This document shows positions 53,371 to 62,966 of a stretch of DNA of 64,000 bases, piece after piece; within the stretch, counting starts at the first letter, position 1; the number at the start of each line of letters is the position of its first letter. The translations under genes were made by a program, and so were the position numbers. The notes beneath the pieces are model-generated. The model was given only the letters and a program-made list of their open reading frames with translations. It did not search any database and was not told the origin of the DNA. Source of the stretch: Pseudomonadota bacterium (GTDB lineage Bacteria; Pseudomonadota; Gammaproteobacteria; Burkholderiales; Burkholderiaceae_F); NCBI GenBank assembly GCA_029778535.1, contig JAKOQB010000124.1, positions 62,001 to 126,000 of the forward strand, given 5' to 3'.

Positions 53371-54537
53371 TCAGTTCAACGCTACCGCGTTGCGTTGATC
53401 CGGTTTCACCGCGTTTGCGCCCGGCTTCAGGTCGACCCGCACGTTCCACAGCATCGACTCGGTGCCCCGCTTCGCGCTGCCGATCACGTAATAGGTTCCC
53501 GCCGTGAGCGGCGGCGTGTGCGCGTTGCCCTGCGGATCCGTCGTCAGTACGCCAAGCGCATCGGCCTGAATTCCCTGCAGCCCCAGCGCGCAGCCGGGCG
53601 CCTTGTTCCGGCAGGCACTCATCCCGCTCCGGTAGATCGGCACGCCCGGGGGCGGACGATAACCGCGGCTAGCAAGCGCGACCTCGACGCTGTGGCGAAG
53701 CACGATGAACTTGCTGCCCGCCGGCGAACTGAATGCGCCGTCGTCCGCCTGGAAGCCAGCCGCGAGATTCAGCACGGCACCGTCGCGCGGGTTCGCATCG
53801 CCTTTCGCCGTTGGTACGGGCGCAGGCTGCGCATTCGACGTTGCGGGCGCCGCAACGGCCACCGGCGCGGCGCCGACACGGACCAGCACGCAGTCCTGTC
53901 CCGCCCAGTTGATCCGATCGGGACCGTCGAAATCGAACACGAACAGCTTGAACGTGGTCTTCGGAATGACTGCCACGCGCTTCGCATCGCCGCGATATTC
54001 GACGCGGTCGAGTTCCTGCACCCCGGCGCGTTGGTCCGAACCAGGCAGGCGGTCCGCGCGAAACTCGAATACACCGCCACCGAACAACACCTCGCACAGC
54101 CCGCCTTTCAGCATCGCGCCCAACTGCGCGAACGGATCCGACGAATTGCCGCGGTTCGACGTCGGTCGCGTCCACTTGCCGAGCAGCGGGTTGCGATCGG
54201 CCGGCAGCGGCGGGCGCTTCAGCCACGTGCGGCGCGCTTCTTCGAGCGCGTCGCCCTGCGCTCCCTGCGGCGACATGCCGCCGGCAGGCGCGCCGCCCTG
54301 ATATCCCGGCGCGGCGCCCTGGCCCGACGGCGCATCCAGGCGGCGCGATTCCTCCTGCTGCCGGCGCGCGTTGTCGTTCATGATCTGTTGCTGCCGTTGC
54401 TGCTCCTGGCGCTGCTGCTCCTGCTGGCGCCAATATTCGCGCTGCTGGCGCTCGTACTCCATCTGCGCGGGCGTCTGCGCCGCCACCTGCAGCACGGCGA
54501 CCGCAAGCGCAAGCAGTGCGGCTCGAACGGGTGTCAT
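53371..54537 (-). CDS. Secreted hypothetical protein with Q/R-rich coiled N-terminus
   Basis: Signal peptide MTPVRAALLALAVAVLQVAAQ; no recognised family. Confidence 0.75.
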   Translation of the reverse strand: MTPVRAALLALAVAVLQVAAQTPAQMEYERQQREYWRQQEQQRQEQQRQQQIMNDNARRQQEESRRLDAPSGQGAAPGYQGGAPAGGMSPQGAQGDALEEARRTWLKRPPLPADRNPLLGKWTRPTSNRGNSSDPFAQLGAMLKGGLCEVLFGGGVFEFRADRLPGSDQRAGVQELDRVEYRGDAKRVAVIPKTTFKLFVFDFDGPDRINWAGQDCVLVRVGAAPVAVAAPATSNAQPAPVPTAKGDANPRDGAVLNLAAGFQADDGAFSSPAGSKFIVLRHSVEVALASRGYRPPPGVPIYRSGMSACRNKAPGCALGLQGIQADALGVLTTDPQGNAHTPPLTAGTYYVIGSAKRGTESMLWNVRVDLKPGANAVKPDQRNAVALN

Positions 54538-54596: not shown

Positions 54597-55160
54597 TCAC
54601 TTCGCTCGCACCATCTGCACATTCCTCGGCTGGACAAAGCGATCGCGGTGCGCGGAGTTGACCAAGGTGATCCAGTCCTTCACGCACAGCGTCGCGTACT
54701 CGTACTTCTCGGCGGTCGAGAACAGCGTTACCTTGCCGCGCGAGAAAATGGCCGCCTCGACGAGCGCGGGCCCGAACGGAGTGACGCAGACCACGCCTTC
54801 CTCCTCGGTGCCCTTGTGAGGCGCATTGCCCGCAATGCTCAGGCTGCCGCCGTCAAAGGCGATCGAACCGCGGACGTTGAGGTTCTGCATCAGTTTCGGC
54901 AACTGCGCGCCGACGACGCGCTGCAGTTCCGCACGCACCGCAGGCTCCTTCAGCAATCCTTCGCTGTCGTCCCGCCCGGGCGATGCGGTGTACTTCGCGA
55001 GCAGCGCACGCGCCTGCGCTTCGCGCGCCTTGGCCAGTTGCTGCGCGGCCGATTGCGCTCCCGCGTCCATGGAAATCAGTGACAGCGCGCAGCCCGTTGC
55101 AGCGGTCAGCGCAGCTGCGCATCCGGCAGTGAAAGCAAAGGCGCGGGGCAGATGATTCAC
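54597..55160 (-). CDS. Secreted hypothetical protein (likely operon head with downstream gene)
   Basis: Signal-like NHLPRAFAFTAGCAAALTAATGCALS; GTG start inferred. Confidence 0.7.
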   Translation of the reverse strand: MNHLPRAFAFTAGCAAALTAATGCALSLISMDAGAQSAAQQLAKAREAQARALLAKYTASPGRDDSEGLLKEPAVRAELQRVVGAQLPKLMQNLNVRGSIAFDGGSLSIAGNAPHKGTEEEGVVCVTPFGPALVEAAIFSRGKVTLFSTAEKYEYATLCVKDWITLVNSAHRDRFVQPRNVQMVRAK

Positions 55161-55248: not shown

Positions 55249-55283
55249 ACTCTATGGCCGCGGCTGTTACCGGCCCGTTACCG
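55249..55283 (-). promoter_or_regulatory. Putative SARP-type promoter (a): -10 TAGAGT, 11 bp, CGGTAAC direct repeat with 11-bp period
   Basis: + strand: actcta(55249-55254)-N11-gttaccg(55266-55272)-N4-gttaccg(55277-55283). Confidence 0.7.
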
Positions 55284-55317
55284 CGGACGATCGATCCCAG
55301 ATCGCCAGACCTTGCGT

Positions 55318-58300
55318 CTATTCGCGCAGCCGCCGGCTTGCTGCCGTCACGATTGCCCGGTTGATCGGATTGCGACTGAGAAAGCTGTCGCGGAATTCAT
55401 CGGGAACGCTCGATTGCGCTGTCTGATGAATCCAGTCACGAGCGCGCCTCAGTGCCGCCGTGGCCGACGCGGGATCATGGTTGGCTTCGAAGACTTCGTA
55501 GGCAATCCACCAGGCTTCGGCGAAGTACATGTCGGCGGGTCGCGTCGAATCAAGGCGCGGCAGCAGCCGATGCATTTCGGCCGCGCCCGCGCTTGCGTCG
55601 CCGGCACGCAGCCGGTGCTGCGCCGTCAATAGCCGCGCCTTCATCGCGACGCCTTCGTATTCCAGTGTCTCGGCGCGACGCCAAACGTCCTCGCACCGAG
55701 CCACTGCGTTTTCGGCGGGGCGCGCCAGCGTTTCTTCCAGCTCGGCGAGCATCTGGATGTAAGCGTCCCCGTGTGCGCCGAGCTCGACCAGCGCCTCTCG
55801 AATCTTCGCTGCTCCGCTGCGACCGAGAACGCGATCGATGCGCGCTTCCAGCGTGCAGCGCCGGGCGCGTACCGAATCCATCGAAGGAGGCGCGTACTGC
55901 AGTGCCTTTCTGGCGCGCGCGGCCTGTCCGAGATCGAGCAACACGTTGGCTAGGTGGTTGCTGGCAACGGCGATCCATAGCGTCTGCCCGTCGCGCCGGA
56001 AGACTTCGATCGCCGCTTCGAGGCTCGCGAGCGCCTCGCGATAGCGACCCAGCATCGCGCTGAACATGCCGATGTACATGTCGATCGCGGCGCCGGGCGG
56101 ACCTCCGGTTTCGCCCAGCTGCGCGCGCAGCGCCCGCGCACGCAGCGCCTGTTCGAGCGCGGCATCGAAACGACCGAGATTGCCCTGCGTGAGGGCAAAG
56201 TTCGAGGTCAGCGTCGCCAGTTCACCATAGTCGCCCAATTCGCGCGCGTTCTCGATCGCCCGCGACAGCGCCTCCGCGGCCAGGCGCAAGCGTCGCGCGG
56301 AATTCAGCACATAGGCATAGTCACCCCAGAATTTTCCGCGCTGCTCGCGCGTTCCCTCGCGTTCGACGGCCTCGCGAAACCCCTCGATCAGCGGCAGCGC
56401 CTCGGCCGCGCGCTCCTGCTGCGCCAGGCCGATTGCCAGCAGGCGCGCGGCCTCGAATTTCGGTCCCCACGCGTCGAATTCGCTCGCCAGGTCGTACGCC
56501 TCGCGTGCGGCCGCGATCCCGGCCGCGTGGTCGGCCGCCATCAGTCGCAGATGCGCCTGCGCGGTCAATGCGGCGGCGCGCTGCTCTGTGGTCCGGGCCT
56601 CGCGGATCAGCGAATCGACCACCTCGGTCGCACGCTGGACACCGCCGATCAGGATCAGCGATTCCACGCTTTCGCGCCGCGCATCGAAGGCCGCATCGTG
56701 TTCCCCCACGCGCTCGAAGCATTCGCAGGCGCGCCGCCATTGCTCGATCTCGTGCGAACGCTGTGACATGCGGCGTGCGTCCAACGCTGCCGCAGTGAAT
56801 GCCCGTCCGGCGCGGCTCCATTCCTGCGCGTCAGACCAGTGCGGCGCAACGCGGGCCGCCGGCGCTCCGTGCGCTTCGAGATAGGCAGCCACGTCGCGAT
56901 GCAGAACCTGTGCGATCGGCGCCGGCACCGAACGCTGCGCTGTTTCCAGAATCAGGTCGTGCGCGAACGCGTCGTCGCGCAGGATGTGCGCCGCTTCAAG
57001 TTCGCGCCATGGCTCGGAGAGGTCGAGCGCGTGCACGCCGAGCACGTGTGCCGCAAGCCCGGCGCTGAAGTCCTGTCCGGCCAGCGCAGCGACGCGCGCG
57101 AGCTTTAGCGCATGCGGCGTGAGCTGCCGCAAGCGGCGCTCGATCAGCTCGCCCACGCTCGCGGGCGTCGGCAGCCGCGGCCCGCCCGGAAGCGCGGCGC
57201 CGCCCTGCGCGAGCAGCGCGCCGAGCGTCTCCAGCACGAACAGCGGATTGCCGCCCGTATGCCGCACGAGCAGCGGCGCGAGCCGCGCAGCGTCGACACT
57301 CGGCAGCGCCAGCGAGTCGAGCAATTCGCGCACTGCCGGCTCGTCGAGCGGCCCGAGCGTCACGTGCGCGTGCGTGCCGGCGTCCTGCTGCGCGAGCCAC
57401 GCGTCGACCGCGGCCGGCAGTTCGTTCGCGCGCACGCCGAACAGCCAGAACACCCGCGCGTCGGCCGCCATCGCGAGCGCCGGCAGCACCTCGAGCGTGG
57501 CCTGGTCGGCGAAGTGCAGGTCGTCGAGAGCGAGAATGCGCAGCCCGGCCTCGTGCCACTGTTCGAACGCGTGCGCGGCCGCCAGCCGCAGCCGCAGCGG
57601 CTCGAACTTCGCGGAGGTCTCGCCGAGTTCGGGCAGCACGTGCGCCAGTTCGGCGCCGACCCAGTCGTCGGCTGGCGCGCCATGGCGGCGGACCAGCGCC
57701 CGCAGCAGCGCGGCGAGCGTCGCATACGGCACGCGCGCATCGCCGGGGCGGCTTCCGGCCACGAGCGCGTTTCCGTGCGCCTGCGCGAAATCGGACAGAA
57801 GTCGCGTCTTGCCCATCCCAGGCTCGCCCGCCACCACGACCACGCGCAGGCTGTCGCACCAATGTTCGAGCAACTGCCACTCGCGTTGGCGCCCGACCAG
57901 CCGCGGCGGCCGCAAGATGGCGACCGATTTCGCCGCCGGCGCCGGCTGCGGCAGCGCGCCGCTCGCCTCGATCAGTCGCGCGAGCTCCAGCGTTTCCTTG
58001 CCGGGCAGCGCGCCGACATGCTGCCGCAGAAGTTCGCGGGAGCGCTCGAACGCCGCCAGCGCCGCCGCGCGGTCGCCGCGCAGATAGTGCAGCCGCATCA
58101 CGCGGCGGTGGGCGTGCTCGAGCGTGGGATCCTCGGCCGCAAGCCGCTGCGCGTAGCGCAGCGCCGGAGCGATGCGGCCGTCGGCTTCGAGCCGCGCCGC
58201 GATCTCGGCCAGCGCGTTGCAGCGCGCGGTGCGCCACTGATCGCGTGCGACGCTGACCCATTCGGACAGTTCGAGGCAATCGCCGTAGTCGAGCTCGCCG

Positions 58301-58776
58301 AGCAGCTCGCCGGTCGCGGCATCCGGGTCGTCCAGCAGCCGCGGGCCGAGCGCCTCGAGATCGTGCCGCACGTCCTCCGCGAGCGCGAGCATGGCGCCGG
58401 GACGCACCACATCACCCGAGGCGAGTCGGCGCAGGCGGAACAGACGCTGGCGCAGGTTGTTGCGCGCGCGCTCTTCGTCGATGTCGGGCCACAGCAGCGC
58501 GGCAACCTTGTTGCGCGGTGTCGGTCCTTCGGCGGCCAGCATCGCCAGCAGCGCCGCGTCCTTGCGCTCGAGCACGTGCGCGCTGCCGCTCGCCAGCACG
58601 AGGCACGGCAGGTTCAGCAACTGCAGGCGCAGCCGCGTCGCGGCCGCCGCTGTCGCCAGAACCTGCGCGTCGGATCCGGTTGAAGCCGCCTCGCCCATCG
58701 GCCCCTCCGCAAACCGCAGCAGCAGCCGCAGGCGCAAGTTGCCACGCGGTCCGCCGGGTGCGATGGGGCCGATCAT
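55318..58776 (-). CDS. SARP/BTAD-type transcriptional activator with AAA ATPase and TPR-like C-terminus (up to 1152 aa)
   Basis: N-terminal wHTH KDAALLAMLAAEGPTPRNKVAALLWPDIDEERARNNLRQRLFRLR; BTAD; Walker A VVVAGEPGMGKTRLLSDF; helical repeats. Confidence 0.9.
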   Translation of the reverse strand: MIGPIAPGGPRGNLRLRLLLRFAEGPMGEAASTGSDAQVLATAAAATRLRLQLLNLPCLVLASGSAHVLERKDAALLAMLAAEGPTPRNKVAALLWPDIDEERARNNLRQRLFRLRRLASGDVVRPGAMLALAEDVRHDLEALGPRLLDDPDAATGELLGELDYGDCLELSEWVSVARDQWRTARCNALAEIAARLEADGRIAPALRYAQRLAAEDPTLEHAHRRVMRLHYLRGDRAAALAAFERSRELLRQHVGALPGKETLELARLIEASGALPQPAPAAKSVAILRPPRLVGRQREWQLLEHWCDSLRVVVVAGEPGMGKTRLLSDFAQAHGNALVAGSRPGDARVPYATLAALLRALVRRHGAPADDWVGAELAHVLPELGETSAKFEPLRLRLAAAHAFEQWHEAGLRILALDDLHFADQATLEVLPALAMAADARVFWLFGVRANELPAAVDAWLAQQDAGTHAHVTLGPLDEPAVRELLDSLALPSVDAARLAPLLVRHTGGNPLFVLETLGALLAQGGAALPGGPRLPTPASVGELIERRLRQLTPHALKLARVAALAGQDFSAGLAAHVLGVHALDLSEPWRELEAAHILRDDAFAHDLILETAQRSVPAPIAQVLHRDVAAYLEAHGAPAARVAPHWSDAQEWSRAGRAFTAAALDARRMSQRSHEIEQWRRACECFERVGEHDAAFDARRESVESLILIGGVQRATEVVDSLIREARTTEQRAAALTAQAHLRLMAADHAAGIAAAREAYDLASEFDAWGPKFEAARLLAIGLAQQERAAEALPLIEGFREAVEREGTREQRGKFWGDYAYVLNSARRLRLAAEALSRAIENARELGDYGELATLTSNFALTQGNLGRFDAALEQALRARALRAQLGETGGPPGAAIDMYIGMFSAMLGRYREALASLEAAIEVFRRDGQTLWIAVASNHLANVLLDLGQAARARKALQYAPPSMDSVRARRCTLEARIDRVLGRSGAAKIREALVELGAHGDAYIQMLAELEETLARPAENAVARCEDVWRRAETLEYEGVAMKARLLTAQHRLRAGDASAGAAEMHRLLPRLDSTRPADMYFAEAWWIAYEVFEANHDPASATAALRRARDWIHQTAQSSVPDEFRDSFLSRNPINRAIVTAASRRLRE

Positions 58777-58966
58777 AAGCAGATGCTCACCCGCCGGCTA
58801 ATCGGTACCAACCCACCCACCCCACGCTCGGGTGGCTATCGCGATCGCCGGGGCGGATGTCGATTTCGACACTTCGTCGCGCGCGGTCTGGCCGCGGCGG
58901 CGCCGGTTCGCTGCTTGCGGGGGACCGGCGACGCCGCGGCAGACACGCGACAGCCTACGCCTTTGG

Positions 58967-59887
58967 CTATTTCTTGGCCGGCGGCTTGGCGCCGGTCGCG
59001 GCCGGCGCCTGATTGAGCTCCTTCGACGCCGGCGTCGAGCCGCCGTCGACGCCGAGGCGGCCGCCGGTGCCCAGGCCGCCGCGCACGGTCTGCGCCTTGT
59101 AGTTCTTAAGCGCGCCAACCATCTGATTGAACGAGTCGGCAAATGCCGCGGTGATGATCTTGCCCTGCGGCGTGTTCGAGTACGCGCCCGCGCCCGCGCC
59201 GAGCCCGCCGCCGAAGAGCCCCCCGGCGATGTTGAAGTCGTAGTTCTTGGCACTTCCTTCGGCCGCCGAGATCTGCACGCCCGAGCGGTTGTCGATCAGC
59301 AGCAGCGTGGTGGCCGCCTCGTTCGATTTGAGACCGCCCGCGACCACGCCGGCTGCCGCGCCCAGGAAGCCCAGCCCGCCGAGCGCGCCGCCGATGCCGC
59401 CGGTGCCCTTCTGCGCGAACTGGATGCTCGGCCGCATCGTGTAGTCGGCGGCGACCATCTGGCCCTTGCCGAAGTTGCTGCCGCCGCGCATCTCGCCGGA
59501 CTGCTGCAACGCGCGCTCCTGCGTCATCGCGGCCATGCCGGAGGCGCTGCGCTCGACGATCACGAAGCAGTTCGACTGCTGGATCATCAGCCGCAGCACC
59601 GGCACGGTCGAGCCGAGGTTGTACTGGCGCAGCTGCACGTACCACGGCGCGGCCGAGTCTTCCTCGACGGCGAGCGTGCCGAGCGTCTCGTCGCAGCGGG
59701 TGAGCTGCGTGTTCTGGCCCTGCGCCGTCTCCCCGCCGGCCGCGCCGGTCACGGTGCCCTTCGATCCTCCCATCGTCGGCATCGTGCCGCCGCAGCTCGC
59801 CAGCGCCAGTAGGATCGCCGACGCCAATGTTGAACGCGTGAACACTGCGCGCAGATCCGCCGCGCGCGTCGCCCGAATCGAATTCAT
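58967..59887 (-). CDS. CsgG/HfaB-like lipoprotein
   Basis: Lipobox-like LLALASCGG; PVLRLMIQQSNCFVIVERSASGMAAMTQERALQQSGEMRGGSNFGKGQMVAADYTM. Confidence 0.8.
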   Translation of the reverse strand: MNSIRATRAADLRAVFTRSTLASAILLALASCGGTMPTMGGSKGTVTGAAGGETAQGQNTQLTRCDETLGTLAVEEDSAAPWYVQLRQYNLGSTVPVLRLMIQQSNCFVIVERSASGMAAMTQERALQQSGEMRGGSNFGKGQMVAADYTMRPSIQFAQKGTGGIGGALGGLGFLGAAAGVVAGGLKSNEAATTLLLIDNRSGVQISAAEGSAKNYDFNIAGGLFGGGLGAGAGAYSNTPQGKIITAAFADSFNQMVGALKNYKAQTVRGGLGTGGRLGVDGGSTPASKELNQAPAATGAKPPAKK

Positions 59888-59940
59888 CTCCACCCCCGCA
59901 CTGGTTGATCGCCGATCCCCCACGGACTCGGCGAGGCGCC

Positions 59941-59975
59941 AATGTGCACCAGTCGCCGTTACTGCGGCGTTACCG
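59941..59975 (-). promoter_or_regulatory. Putative SARP-type promoter (b): -10 CACATT, 11 bp, (C/A)GTAAC direct repeat with 11-bp period
   Basis: + strand: aatgtg(59941-59946)-N11-gttactg(59958-59964)-N4-gttaccg(59969-59975). Confidence 0.7.
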
Positions 59976-59978
59976 GGA

Positions 59979-61769
59979 TCACGGCACGAAGGTCGTCACG
60001 CGCGTCACTCCCGCCGCATCGCTGCGGTAGAAGAAGAGGTCGGTCGTGAAGCTGGTGCCGATCAATGCATTGGCGACGAAGAGATCCGGCTGGCGCCACA
60101 ACGTACCGGTGTTCGTGTTCGCCACCGTGATGAAGGCGCCGGCCGGCAGGCTGCCGTAGTTGACCAGCACGTTGCGCGTCGGGCCTTCGTACGCCCGCAG
60201 CGACGCGCCGGAGAACGTGGTGACGCCGGGCGGCAGCGCATGCGCGACGAGGATCGCATACCAGCCGGTCTCGTTGCGGATCGCGGACAGCGGATTGGCC
60301 AGATGCACGCCGATCGTGTAGGCGTCGGCGATCTGCTGCGGATTGCCGCCGTCGGACTGGACGATGCCGAGCGTCTTGCCGCTCGATGTCGAGGTCGGCA
60401 CCCCCACCGACGCGTAATACACGTTCTCTCCGGACGGAAACGCGCTGGCGAGGAACGCCGGCTGCGCGATCGATGCCAGCGTCGTGACGCTGCCGCCGGT
60501 CTTCGGCACCGAGCGCAGGTTGCCGGCGGCGGCGAAGATCACGCGCGTCGGCGTCGTGCCCCAGATGTTCGGCGGCCCGGACGTCTCGGTTGCCAGCGTC
60601 GTGACCGCCAGCGTGTCGGTCACGCGCACGACGCGCCCGCCCGAGCTGGTGTTCACGACGAGGTACATGCCGCTCGAATCGGGCGCGCCGCCGATTGCGG
60701 TTTCGCCCGCCGCGAGGCTGAACAGCGTGGTCGGACCGGCTCCGTTCTTCAGGTCGTACGCGCGCACGTCGCTGCCGTCCTGATAGACGAAGATGTCCTT
60801 GGCCGCATTGACCAGCCGCCCGACGCGGGCGAATGTCCCGCCGCTGACGGTGAACAGCGGCGCCGGATTGGCGAAGCTCGCATCGACGCGCTGGATCTGG
60901 TTGCCGGTGCGGACCACGAATCCCGTCAGCTCGCCCGCGTTGCCGTTGATGGACGTGATCGGGGTGGCGGTCGTCGACAGCGGCGCATCGGTGTCGGCCA
61001 TGTTCAGCCGGACGCCGAGGTACGTGTCGTCGGCGGTGTTGCAGGCGAGGTCGGGTCCGGGCGCGCGATAGACGAGGACGGTCCGATCGGGATTCGGTGC
61101 GTCCGCGCCCAGCAGCTCGCCGAACAGGCCCGACTTCGCACACAACTGCGGAGTCGCGACCGAACTGAGCACCGTGGGCGCCGGCGTGCCACCGCTCTTC
61201 AGCAGGTCGAGCCGATACAGCCGCGCGCCCTTCGCGTACACGAGATAGCGCGTGTTCAGTTGCGTCAGATTGCCCGATCCGTCGAGCACCTGCGCGGCGG
61301 CGCCGCCCTGCAGGACCCAGTTGCCGCTCTCGACCACGACCCCCGGCGTCGGCGCATTCGGGTCGACCAGCGTCAGGTTCGCGCTCGGCACCGTGATCGG
61401 ACCGGACGCCGTGTTGATCGTCGTCTGCGCCGGCGTGCCGGCGCCGGCCCACAGCCAGTAACTCGATGCCGACGGCGCCGGCGCGGGCGTCGGTGCAGGC
61501 GCGGGCGTCGGTGCCGGAGACGGCGCAGGCGACGGTGCTGGTGTGGGCGCCGGCGGCGGCGTGGGTGTCGGCGCGGGCGGCGGCGCCGGGCTCGGCGCCG
61601 GAGCAGGCGCGGGCGACGGTGCGGGCGAAGGCGCCGGTGACGGTGCTGGCGACGGCGTCGGCGAAGGCGACGGCGACGGACTCGATCCGCCGCAAGCCGT
61701 CAATGCGGACAGCGCCAGAGCGCCCGCGACGCAGGCGCCAAAGAGTTTCCTTTCGACCCCACGTGCCAT
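59979..61769 (-). CDS. Lipoprotein with (S/A/T)P-rich linker and a probable beta-propeller-like body
   Basis: Lipobox LSALTACGGS; SPSPSPTPSPAPSPAP... linker of ~75 aa. Confidence 0.82.
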   Translation of the reverse strand: MARGVERKLFGACVAGALALSALTACGGSSPSPSPSPTPSPAPSPAPSPAPSPAPAPAPSPAPPPAPTPTPPPAPTPAPSPAPSPAPTPAPAPTPAPAPSASSYWLWAGAGTPAQTTINTASGPITVPSANLTLVDPNAPTPGVVVESGNWVLQGGAAAQVLDGSGNLTQLNTRYLVYAKGARLYRLDLLKSGGTPAPTVLSSVATPQLCAKSGLFGELLGADAPNPDRTVLVYRAPGPDLACNTADDTYLGVRLNMADTDAPLSTTATPITSINGNAGELTGFVVRTGNQIQRVDASFANPAPLFTVSGGTFARVGRLVNAAKDIFVYQDGSDVRAYDLKNGAGPTTLFSLAAGETAIGGAPDSSGMYLVVNTSSGGRVVRVTDTLAVTTLATETSGPPNIWGTTPTRVIFAAAGNLRSVPKTGGSVTTLASIAQPAFLASAFPSGENVYYASVGVPTSTSSGKTLGIVQSDGGNPQQIADAYTIGVHLANPLSAIRNETGWYAILVAHALPPGVTTFSGASLRAYEGPTRNVLVNYGSLPAGAFITVANTNTGTLWRQPDLFVANALIGTSFTTDLFFYRSDAAGVTRVTTFVP

Positions 61770-61816
61770 CGCAGCCTCTCCTCGTTGACCCCGACGCGGC
61801 GCGTCGAGCGGAGGCG

Positions 61817-61851
61817 AACCTAGCTGGGCGTGTGTTACCGGCGCGTTACCG
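61817..61851 (-). promoter_or_regulatory. Putative SARP-type promoter (c): -10 TAGGTT, 11 bp, CGGTAAC direct repeat with 11-bp period
   Basis: + strand: aaccta(61817-61822)-N11-gttaccg(61834-61840)-N4-gttaccg(61845-61851). Confidence 0.7.
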
Positions 61852-61862
61852 GCAGTGCGGCA

Positions 61863-62966
61863 TCATTCGTTGAGCGCGCGCTCGACCTCGCGCCACAGCA
61901 CCTCGGTCGGCTCGCAGCCGACCGACAGGCGGATGAAACCCTCCGCCACCTGATCGCCCCAGCGCGCGCGGCGCTCGGCGCTGGTATGCACGCCGCCGAA
62001 GCTGGTCGCGGGACGGATGAAGCGGCACGCGCCGATGAAGCGTTCTGCGGCTTCCTTGTCGGCGAGCGTCAAGCCGATCAACGCGCCGAAGCTCGCCATC
62101 TGCGCCTGCGCCAGCGAGTGCGCGGGATGCGAAGGCAGTCCCGGGTAACGCACGCCGACCACCTTCCGGTGCCCGGCCAACCGCTGCGCGAGTACCAGCG
62201 CGTTCGCGCACATGCGGCTGAATCGCACTTCGAGCGTCTCCAGCCCGCGGTGGACGAGCCACGCCTCGAACGGGCCCGGGATGCTGCCTACGATGCGGCG
62301 CCAGTCGCGAACGCCGGCGATCAGCTCGTCGCTTCTCGACGACACGTGGCCGAACAGCACGTCGGAGTGGCCGTTCAGTGCCTTCGTATCCGCGCTGACG
62401 ACGAAGTCCGCGCCGAGATCGAGCGGCCGCTGGCCGAGCGGCGTCATCGTCGTGTTGTCGACCGCCACCAGCGCGCCGACCGCGTGCGCGCGCTCGACGT
62501 TGGCGGCGATGTCGGCCAGATCGAGCGCGGGATTCGACGGCGTCTCGATCAGCACCAGCCTGTAGCCGGCGAGCTTGTGCGCGCCGAGCTGCGCGGTCGC
62601 CACCGTGTCGACCCGCACGCCGATCGGCGCCAGGTACTTGTCGGCGCAGATGCGCGTCGTGTAGTAGCCGTCGCTCGGCAGCAGCACGCGGTCGCCGGGC
62701 TTGAGCACCGAGGTGAAGATTGCCGCGATCGCCGCCATGCCCGACGGGAACGTGATCGTCTCCGCTTCTTCGAGCGCGGACAGCGACGCCTCGAGCGCGG
62801 TCCAGGTCGGATTGCCCCAGCGCGCGTACTGGTACGCGCCGCCCGGATCGCCCGGCAGCGCGTATACCGACGTGTTGACGATCGGCGGCGAGAACGCCTG
62901 ATTGACCGGCGTCGTCTTGCTCGCCAGATGCAGCATGCGCGCGAAGCGTTCGTCGTCGAGGCTCAT
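61863..62966 (-). CDS. Cys/Met metabolism PLP-dependent enzyme (cystathionine gamma-synthase/lyase family)
   Basis: YQYARWGNPTWTALEASLSALEEAETITFPSGMAAI...SADTKALNGHSDVLFGHV. Confidence 0.92.
   Translation of the reverse strand: MSLDDERFARMLHLASKTTPVNQAFSPPIVNTSVYALPGDPGGAYQYARWGNPTWTALEASLSALEEAETITFPSGMAAIAAIFTSVLKPGDRVLLPSDGYYTTRICADKYLAPIGVRVDTVATAQLGAHKLAGYRLVLIETPSNPALDLADIAANVERAHAVGALVAVDNTTMTPLGQRPLDLGADFVVSADTKALNGHSDVLFGHVSSRSDELIAGVRDWRRIVGSIPGPFEAWLVHRGLETLEVRFSRMCANALVLAQRLAGHRKVVGVRYPGLPSHPAHSLAQAQMASFGALIGLTLADKEAAERFIGACRFIRPATSFGGVHTSAERRARWGDQVAEGFIRLSVGCEPTEVLWREVERALNE

Follow-up and report, generated by a model that had tools for sequence, protein, structure and literature searches.

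A predicted large SARP and its putative 11-bp-repeat operators at a surface-protein locus of a betaproteobacterium

The question raised by this locus is what binds three nearly identical direct repeats placed around an AfsR-like regulator gene in a betaproteobacterial genome, and what binding would do to the genes that follow them. The window analyzed is a stretch of 64,000 nucleotides (positions 62001 to 126000 of contig C5) from a source genome of 4.77 Mb in 240 contigs. Our preferred reading, to which we assign a probability of about 0.83, is that a large SARP activates three neighboring transcription units for surface proteins via the 11-bp repeats. It draws on four results shown by computation, namely, the restriction of the sites to this locus, their linkage to the regulator, their spacing, and the fold of the protein; from these we infer binding, activation, gating, and a signal.

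Three repeats confined to one locus

Three intergenic direct repeats of the form CGGTAAC-N4-CRGTAAC, with an 11-bp period, can be read directly in the window. Each is followed, after 11 bp, by a -10-like hexamer, and all three face minus-strand genes. The features of the locus are as follows, with the basis of each in parentheses.

53371 to 54537, minus strand: gene after target gene 1, predicted secreted protein, possibly in one operon with it (homologue downstream of the regulator in locus L056)
54597 to 55160, minus strand: target gene 1, secreted protein of unknown function (homologues downstream of the regulator in L054 and L063)
55249 to 55254, minus strand: -10-like hexamer TAGAGT, 11 bp from operator 1 (TA at +11 kept in relatives)
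55266 to 55283, minus strand: SARP-type operator 1, CGGTAAC-gggc-CGGTAAC (read directly; window and genome motif scans)
55318 to 58698, minus strand: regulator with OmpR-type wHTH, BTAD, AAA_16, and TPR parts (Pfam, homologue alignment, fold, start analysis)
58967 to 59887, minus strand: target gene 2, lipoprotein with a CsgG domain, PF03783 (homologues beside the regulator in L052 and L074)
59941 to 59946, minus strand: poor -10-like hexamer CACATT, 11 bp from operator 2 (read directly)
59958 to 59975, minus strand: SARP-type operator 2, CGGTAAC-gccg-CAGTAAC (read directly; window and genome motif scans)
59979 to 61769, minus strand: target gene 3, lipoprotein (LTAC/G cut) with a Ser/Pro/Ala linker and a large extracytoplasmic domain (sequence); no match in a Pfam scan
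61817 to 61822, minus strand: -10-like hexamer TAGGTT, 11 bp from operator 3 (read directly; relatives)
61834 to 61851, minus strand: SARP-type operator 3, CGGTAAC-gcgc-CGGTAAC (read directly; window and genome motif scans)

In the gene direction, the whole elements run from 55283 to 55249, 59975 to 59941, and 61851 to 61817, with the architecture and positions described in an earlier, sequence-only reading of this DNA. That reading had also given each site a -10 hexamer followed by a conserved CGCCTC. TAGAGT and TAGGTT stand as -10-like, but CACATT at site 2 makes a poor -10. CGCCTC is indeed present at all three sites, directly after the hexamer at sites 1 and 3 and 2 bp (gg) further on at site 2, but it was dropped from the operator element since relatives do not generally conserve it. 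The sites had been placed about 50 to 110 bp upstream of genes for secreted proteins or lipoproteins; measured from the 3' edge of the sites to the probable target starts (55160, 59887, and 61769, chosen from reading frames and ribosome sites), the gap becomes ~65 to 105 bp. For target gene 1, the GTG start at 55160 is likelier than 55241.

With up to two mismatches allowed, the pattern occurs in the window at these three places only (mean of 0.34 in shuffles), in agreement with the earlier statement that no other such pair is present there. Across the source genome, three matches were found for the full pattern at ≤1 mismatch and exactly three for the 10-base core GTAAC-N6-GTAAC; all are these sites, so that, as expected of a local regulon, the motif is not found at background frequency. 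A promoter search returned no sigma-70 consensus promoter in the region, in keeping with repeats that stand in for the -35 box.

The regulator as a predicted large SARP

The regulator gene had been read as a SARP-type gene spanning 55318 to 58776. The N-terminal part does have a SARP fold, as described below, but the start is probably at 58698, where a GGAGG ribosome site lies upstream and the first residues, MG.(A/D)AST, are common to the nearest homologue. The 26 codons before this start (58698 to 58776) are open in frame and partly conserved as protein in genome G037 (RLLLRF.E.PMG); this stretch may belong to a leader RNA or reflect an alternative start. The gene lies ~270 bp downstream of the CsgG-like target gene 2, with which it may be cotranscribed from promoter 2. 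Unlike in many relatives, no operator was found upstream of the regulator gene itself in the source genome.

A Pfam scan of the protein gave BTAD (PF03704), AAA_16 above the cutoff, and TPR_12 just below it. BTAD directly follows the wHTH; it is present in the window protein and in 38/38 homologues. By sequence, Trans_reg_C is matched by only 3 of the 38 members, and weakly; however, an AF2 model of residues 45 to 280, built on the 38-sequence alignment (pLDDT of 96), matches EmbR and AfsR over 250+ columns, consistent with an N-terminal OmpR-type wHTH. These two are the best PDB matches of the wHTH-BTAD model (E of 7e-7 to 5e-6, TM of 0.56 to 0.64), and the regulator profile detects AfsR by sequence as well, including its TPR part. 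The window protein carries a Walker A motif, GEPGMGKT, and the segment LALDDLHFAD; Walker A (GExGxGKT/S) and the DDLHFAD Walker B are kept in the aligned homologues. The C-terminal ATPase plus TPR arrangement is that of a large SARP, although the ATPase is AAA_16 and not NB-ARC. The same Pfam scan found no N-terminal receiver domain, which sets the protein apart from OmpR/PhoB response regulators, and no C-terminal LuxR/GerE HTH, which sets it apart from the SARP-LAL proteins (PimR, SanG, and PolR) that likewise combine a SARP with an ATPase domain and heptamer repeats with 4-bp spacers (PMC10972967). EmbR of Mycobacterium tuberculosis has the same wHTH-BTAD fold but ends in an FHA domain, without an ATPase or TPR part (PMC10936776).

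The closest parallel is with AfsR, a large SARP of Streptomyces coelicolor, which shares the order of wHTH-BTAD, ATPase, and TPR as well as the fold. In the AfsR complex, two adjacent SARP domains occupy the afs box, a 22-bp stretch that consists of two 11-bp direct repeats, runs from -40 to -19, overlaps the -35 place, and lies beside a weak -10 (PMC10936776). The putative operators described here follow this design: an 11-bp direct repeat lies about where a weak promoter would have its -35 element, and, when the 22-bp box is counted from the first C, 7 bp separate it from the -10, much as in the AfsR arrangement. With recognition helices lined up by eye, so that the residue matching is by inspection, R87, T88, R92, R94, and K95 of AfsR correspond to R109, Q110, R114, R116, and R117 of the window protein; Q110 is invariant in all 38 homologues. 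The differences are a sequence identity of only ~21% over the SARP domain, the type of ATPase, the repeat word (CGGTAAC here, unlike that of the afs box), and a betaproteobacterial host in which the apparent targets are adjoining surface-protein genes and not afsS or antibiotic production.

In the preferred reading, the product of 55318 to 58698 would be a large SARP that joins an OmpR-type wHTH and BTAD to a STAND-type AAA ATPase and a TPR sensor. Its SARP domains would settle as an adjacent pair on the two 11-bp direct repeats, which substitute for a -35 box, and would recruit sigma-70 RNA polymerase to the weak -10 boxes in the manner of AfsR at afsS. The three neighboring units, for a secreted protein, the CsgG-like lipoprotein, and the large lipoprotein, would thereby be switched on, and the ATPase and TPR parts presumably gate activation in response to a signal.

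Sites, spacing, and targets in relatives

Within the same family, a regulator match at E ≤ 1e-30 was found in 8 of 67 genomes, source included, and exact sites were found in 6 of 67: the source, G041, G037, and three genomes with single matches. Two exact sites in G041 flank an orthologue with 49% identity, with one further site elsewhere, and in G037 an exact site adjoins a regulator homologue. The G041 and G037 loci have further sites before the regulator and before lipoprotein genes, and a Cys/Met-lyase neighbor gene is common to the window and one G041/G037 locus (79% identity). The three single matches are in relatives without a near homologue and lack a -10 at +11; they look like chance. 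A site on G041 contig C13 (L037:8900) reads CAGTAAC-N4-CGGTAAC and precedes a lipoprotein gene, with a poor -10 (CACGAT); no regulator was found near it on its contig, and the gene is possibly a target in trans. G041 (JALHMQ01) has eight regulator matches, some beside large lipoproteins, and pairs of a regulator and a surface protein may form an expanded family there.

A scan of named genomes with a 4-sequence alignment as the query (a single-sequence query gave no match) returned 80 homologous loci, nearly all in Burkholderiales (Rubrivivax, Rhizobacter, Ideonella, Aquabacterium, Piscinibacter, and MAGs) and one in Meiothermus. In one clade (L053, L054, L058, L063, and L067), one site precedes the regulator start by ~100 bp and another lies at or just after the regulator stop, before a next gene that is exported in most. 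Together with L060 and L062, these loci have a site upstream of the regulator itself, which points to autoregulation in many relatives.

The CRGTAAC form at 1 mismatch proved too blunt for these relatives, with 24 matches versus 11 in a reversed control; the informative search form was the core GT[AGC]AC together with the -10 position. Among 81 regulator loci, mostly from other Burkholderiales and searched to ≤4.5 kb from the regulator, GT[AGC]AC-N6-GT[AGC]AC followed by TA at 10 to 11 bp gave 43 matches in 31 loci, 40 of them on the strand of the regulator, versus 2 matches for 14 other repeat spacings together. With the repeat fixed, the TA offset was 11 in 37 cases and 10 in 6, with 0 to 4 at each other offset. 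Both the repeat period of 11 bp and the position of the -10 are fixed features, and this is the strongest single result. The remaining 50 loci have no such pair nearby; possible reasons are a different word, a truncated locus, or regulation that is not local.

The genes downstream of the sites belong to varied families: CsgG-like (the window, L052, and L074), PAN (L054), DUF642 (L056 and L063), Ig plus RCC1 or beta-propeller (L062), Calx-beta (L053), and an Ig-domain protein (L034). Since the sites persist while the downstream family changes, they are linked to the regulator and not to the targets, and export is what the targets share. By a crude signal-peptide rule applied to the regulator loci, whose neighbors are not independent of each other, 19 of 31 genes after sites are exported compared with 181 of 954 other genes (P = 5e-7), a share that is too low because some genes scored as negative are plainly lipoproteins whose starts were miscalled. 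Neither of two conditions that would have spoken against the earlier reading holds: the motif does not occur at background frequency in the source genome, and the sites are conserved next to regulator orthologues and homologues. The targets are secreted proteins or lipoproteins here and, in relatives, more often than background.

The repeat word also follows the regulator. On a quick regulator tree, in which a few rows with frame problems (including L103 and L119) have a spurious basal placement, the GTAAC word requires 6 changes versus 10.8 in shuffles, only 1 of 500 of which was as low. Recognition helices resembling LRQQLLRFR occur with GTGAC or GTCAC and LRQRLFRLRR mostly with GTAAC, but we do not claim a correlation between helix and word, which is too confounded by kinship. 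The variant words CGTGACG or CGTCACG were seen in L111, L075, L109, L122, L125, L120, L079, and L108; they keep the 11-bp register, have TA at +10/11, and often precede exported proteins (RCC1 in L111). In Meiothermus hypogaeus (L092:9721), whose homologue lies outside the Proteobacteria, CTGTCAT-N4-CAGTCAT-N11-TATTGT, of the same architecture with a PhoB-like word, is found just after the stop codon of the homologue.

Competing readings and meaning

Counting against the SARP reading are the lack of an own operator at the regulator here, the poor -10 of site 2, the 50 of 81 loci without a pair, and the binding of similar repeats by PhoB- and OmpR-type response regulators. The alternative that survives best accepts the sites as operators of the regulator but assigns them to repression or mere modulation, such as tuning of its own operon. 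Autoregulatory sites in many relatives would suit it, and the effect of a bound site is unreadable from sequence; however, repeats at the -35 position, with no sigma-70 consensus promoter found in the region, fit activation as at afsS (PMC10936776), and we consider this alternative improbable.

It is less probable still that a response regulator of the OmpR/PhoB family (with a GTTACA- or GTAAC-type box), encoded elsewhere, binds the repeats and that the SARP gene is a mere neighbor. PhoB- and OmpR-type response regulators also use an OmpR-type wHTH and bind similar 11-bp direct repeats, similarly placed upstream of a -10, and OmpR-family boxes have GTAAC-like half sites with that period. Geometry alone does not separate the two readings. 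However, the regulon of such a protein should have members throughout the genome, and only these three sites were found; across genomes, the sites follow the SARP gene while targets change, the word varies with the SARP clade, and the -10 at +11 is missing from the matches in the three relatives that have no near homologue. A chance origin or a mobile repeat family, although ~1.9 copies of the core are expected genome-wide by base composition, is already refuted by the genome count, by the spacing and -10 position conserved across genera, by flanking sequences that are unlike each other, and by a probability of ~3e-9 for three core matches in one given 6.6-kb stretch (0.0026 expected), and its likelihood is negligible.

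The preferred reading, activation by a large SARP, may apply to a second locus of the source genome (G000). Contig C44 encodes another AfsR-like BTAD protein (a 999-amino-acid frame with wHTH-BTAD-ATPase). The divergent intergenic region there contains CCAAACG-CTCG-CCAAACG-N10-TAAGGT (L137:2499-2533, ~23057 on the contig), followed by an operon of a short gene and a gene for a secreted protein with a DLDGDGRDD motif. A repeat with 6/7 identity is not rare in a locus of that size; this one has 7/7 identity and is unique in the source genome. If real, it would mean two SARPs in one genome with two private words.

Nearly all descriptions of SARPs come from actinobacteria, where they activate antibiotic clusters, and a survey doubts that proteobacterial hits are typical SARPs (PMC7040171). 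We found no literature on SARP operators in betaproteobacteria in an open-access library whose coverage leaves out most subscription journals. The data presented here support a betaproteobacterial lineage of large SARPs, each with a small regulon devoted to surface proteins, in which binding and activation are predicted. More tentatively, and with somewhat less than even confidence, we suggest that Burkholderiales carry cassettes of a large SARP with an ATPase/TPR sensor and one to three surface-protein genes, each with a private 11-bp word (GTAAC, GTGAC, GTCAC, or CCAAAC) by which paralogues in one genome would be insulated. If so, a regulator class known mainly for the control of antibiotics would serve as a dedicated switch for cell surface display. 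A whole Burkholderiales lineage has SARPs, a matching operator architecture, and surface proteins as apparent targets, and the operator words in dozens of loci offer ready regulator-site pairs for the study of SARP specificity and of sensing by the ATPase/TPR part.
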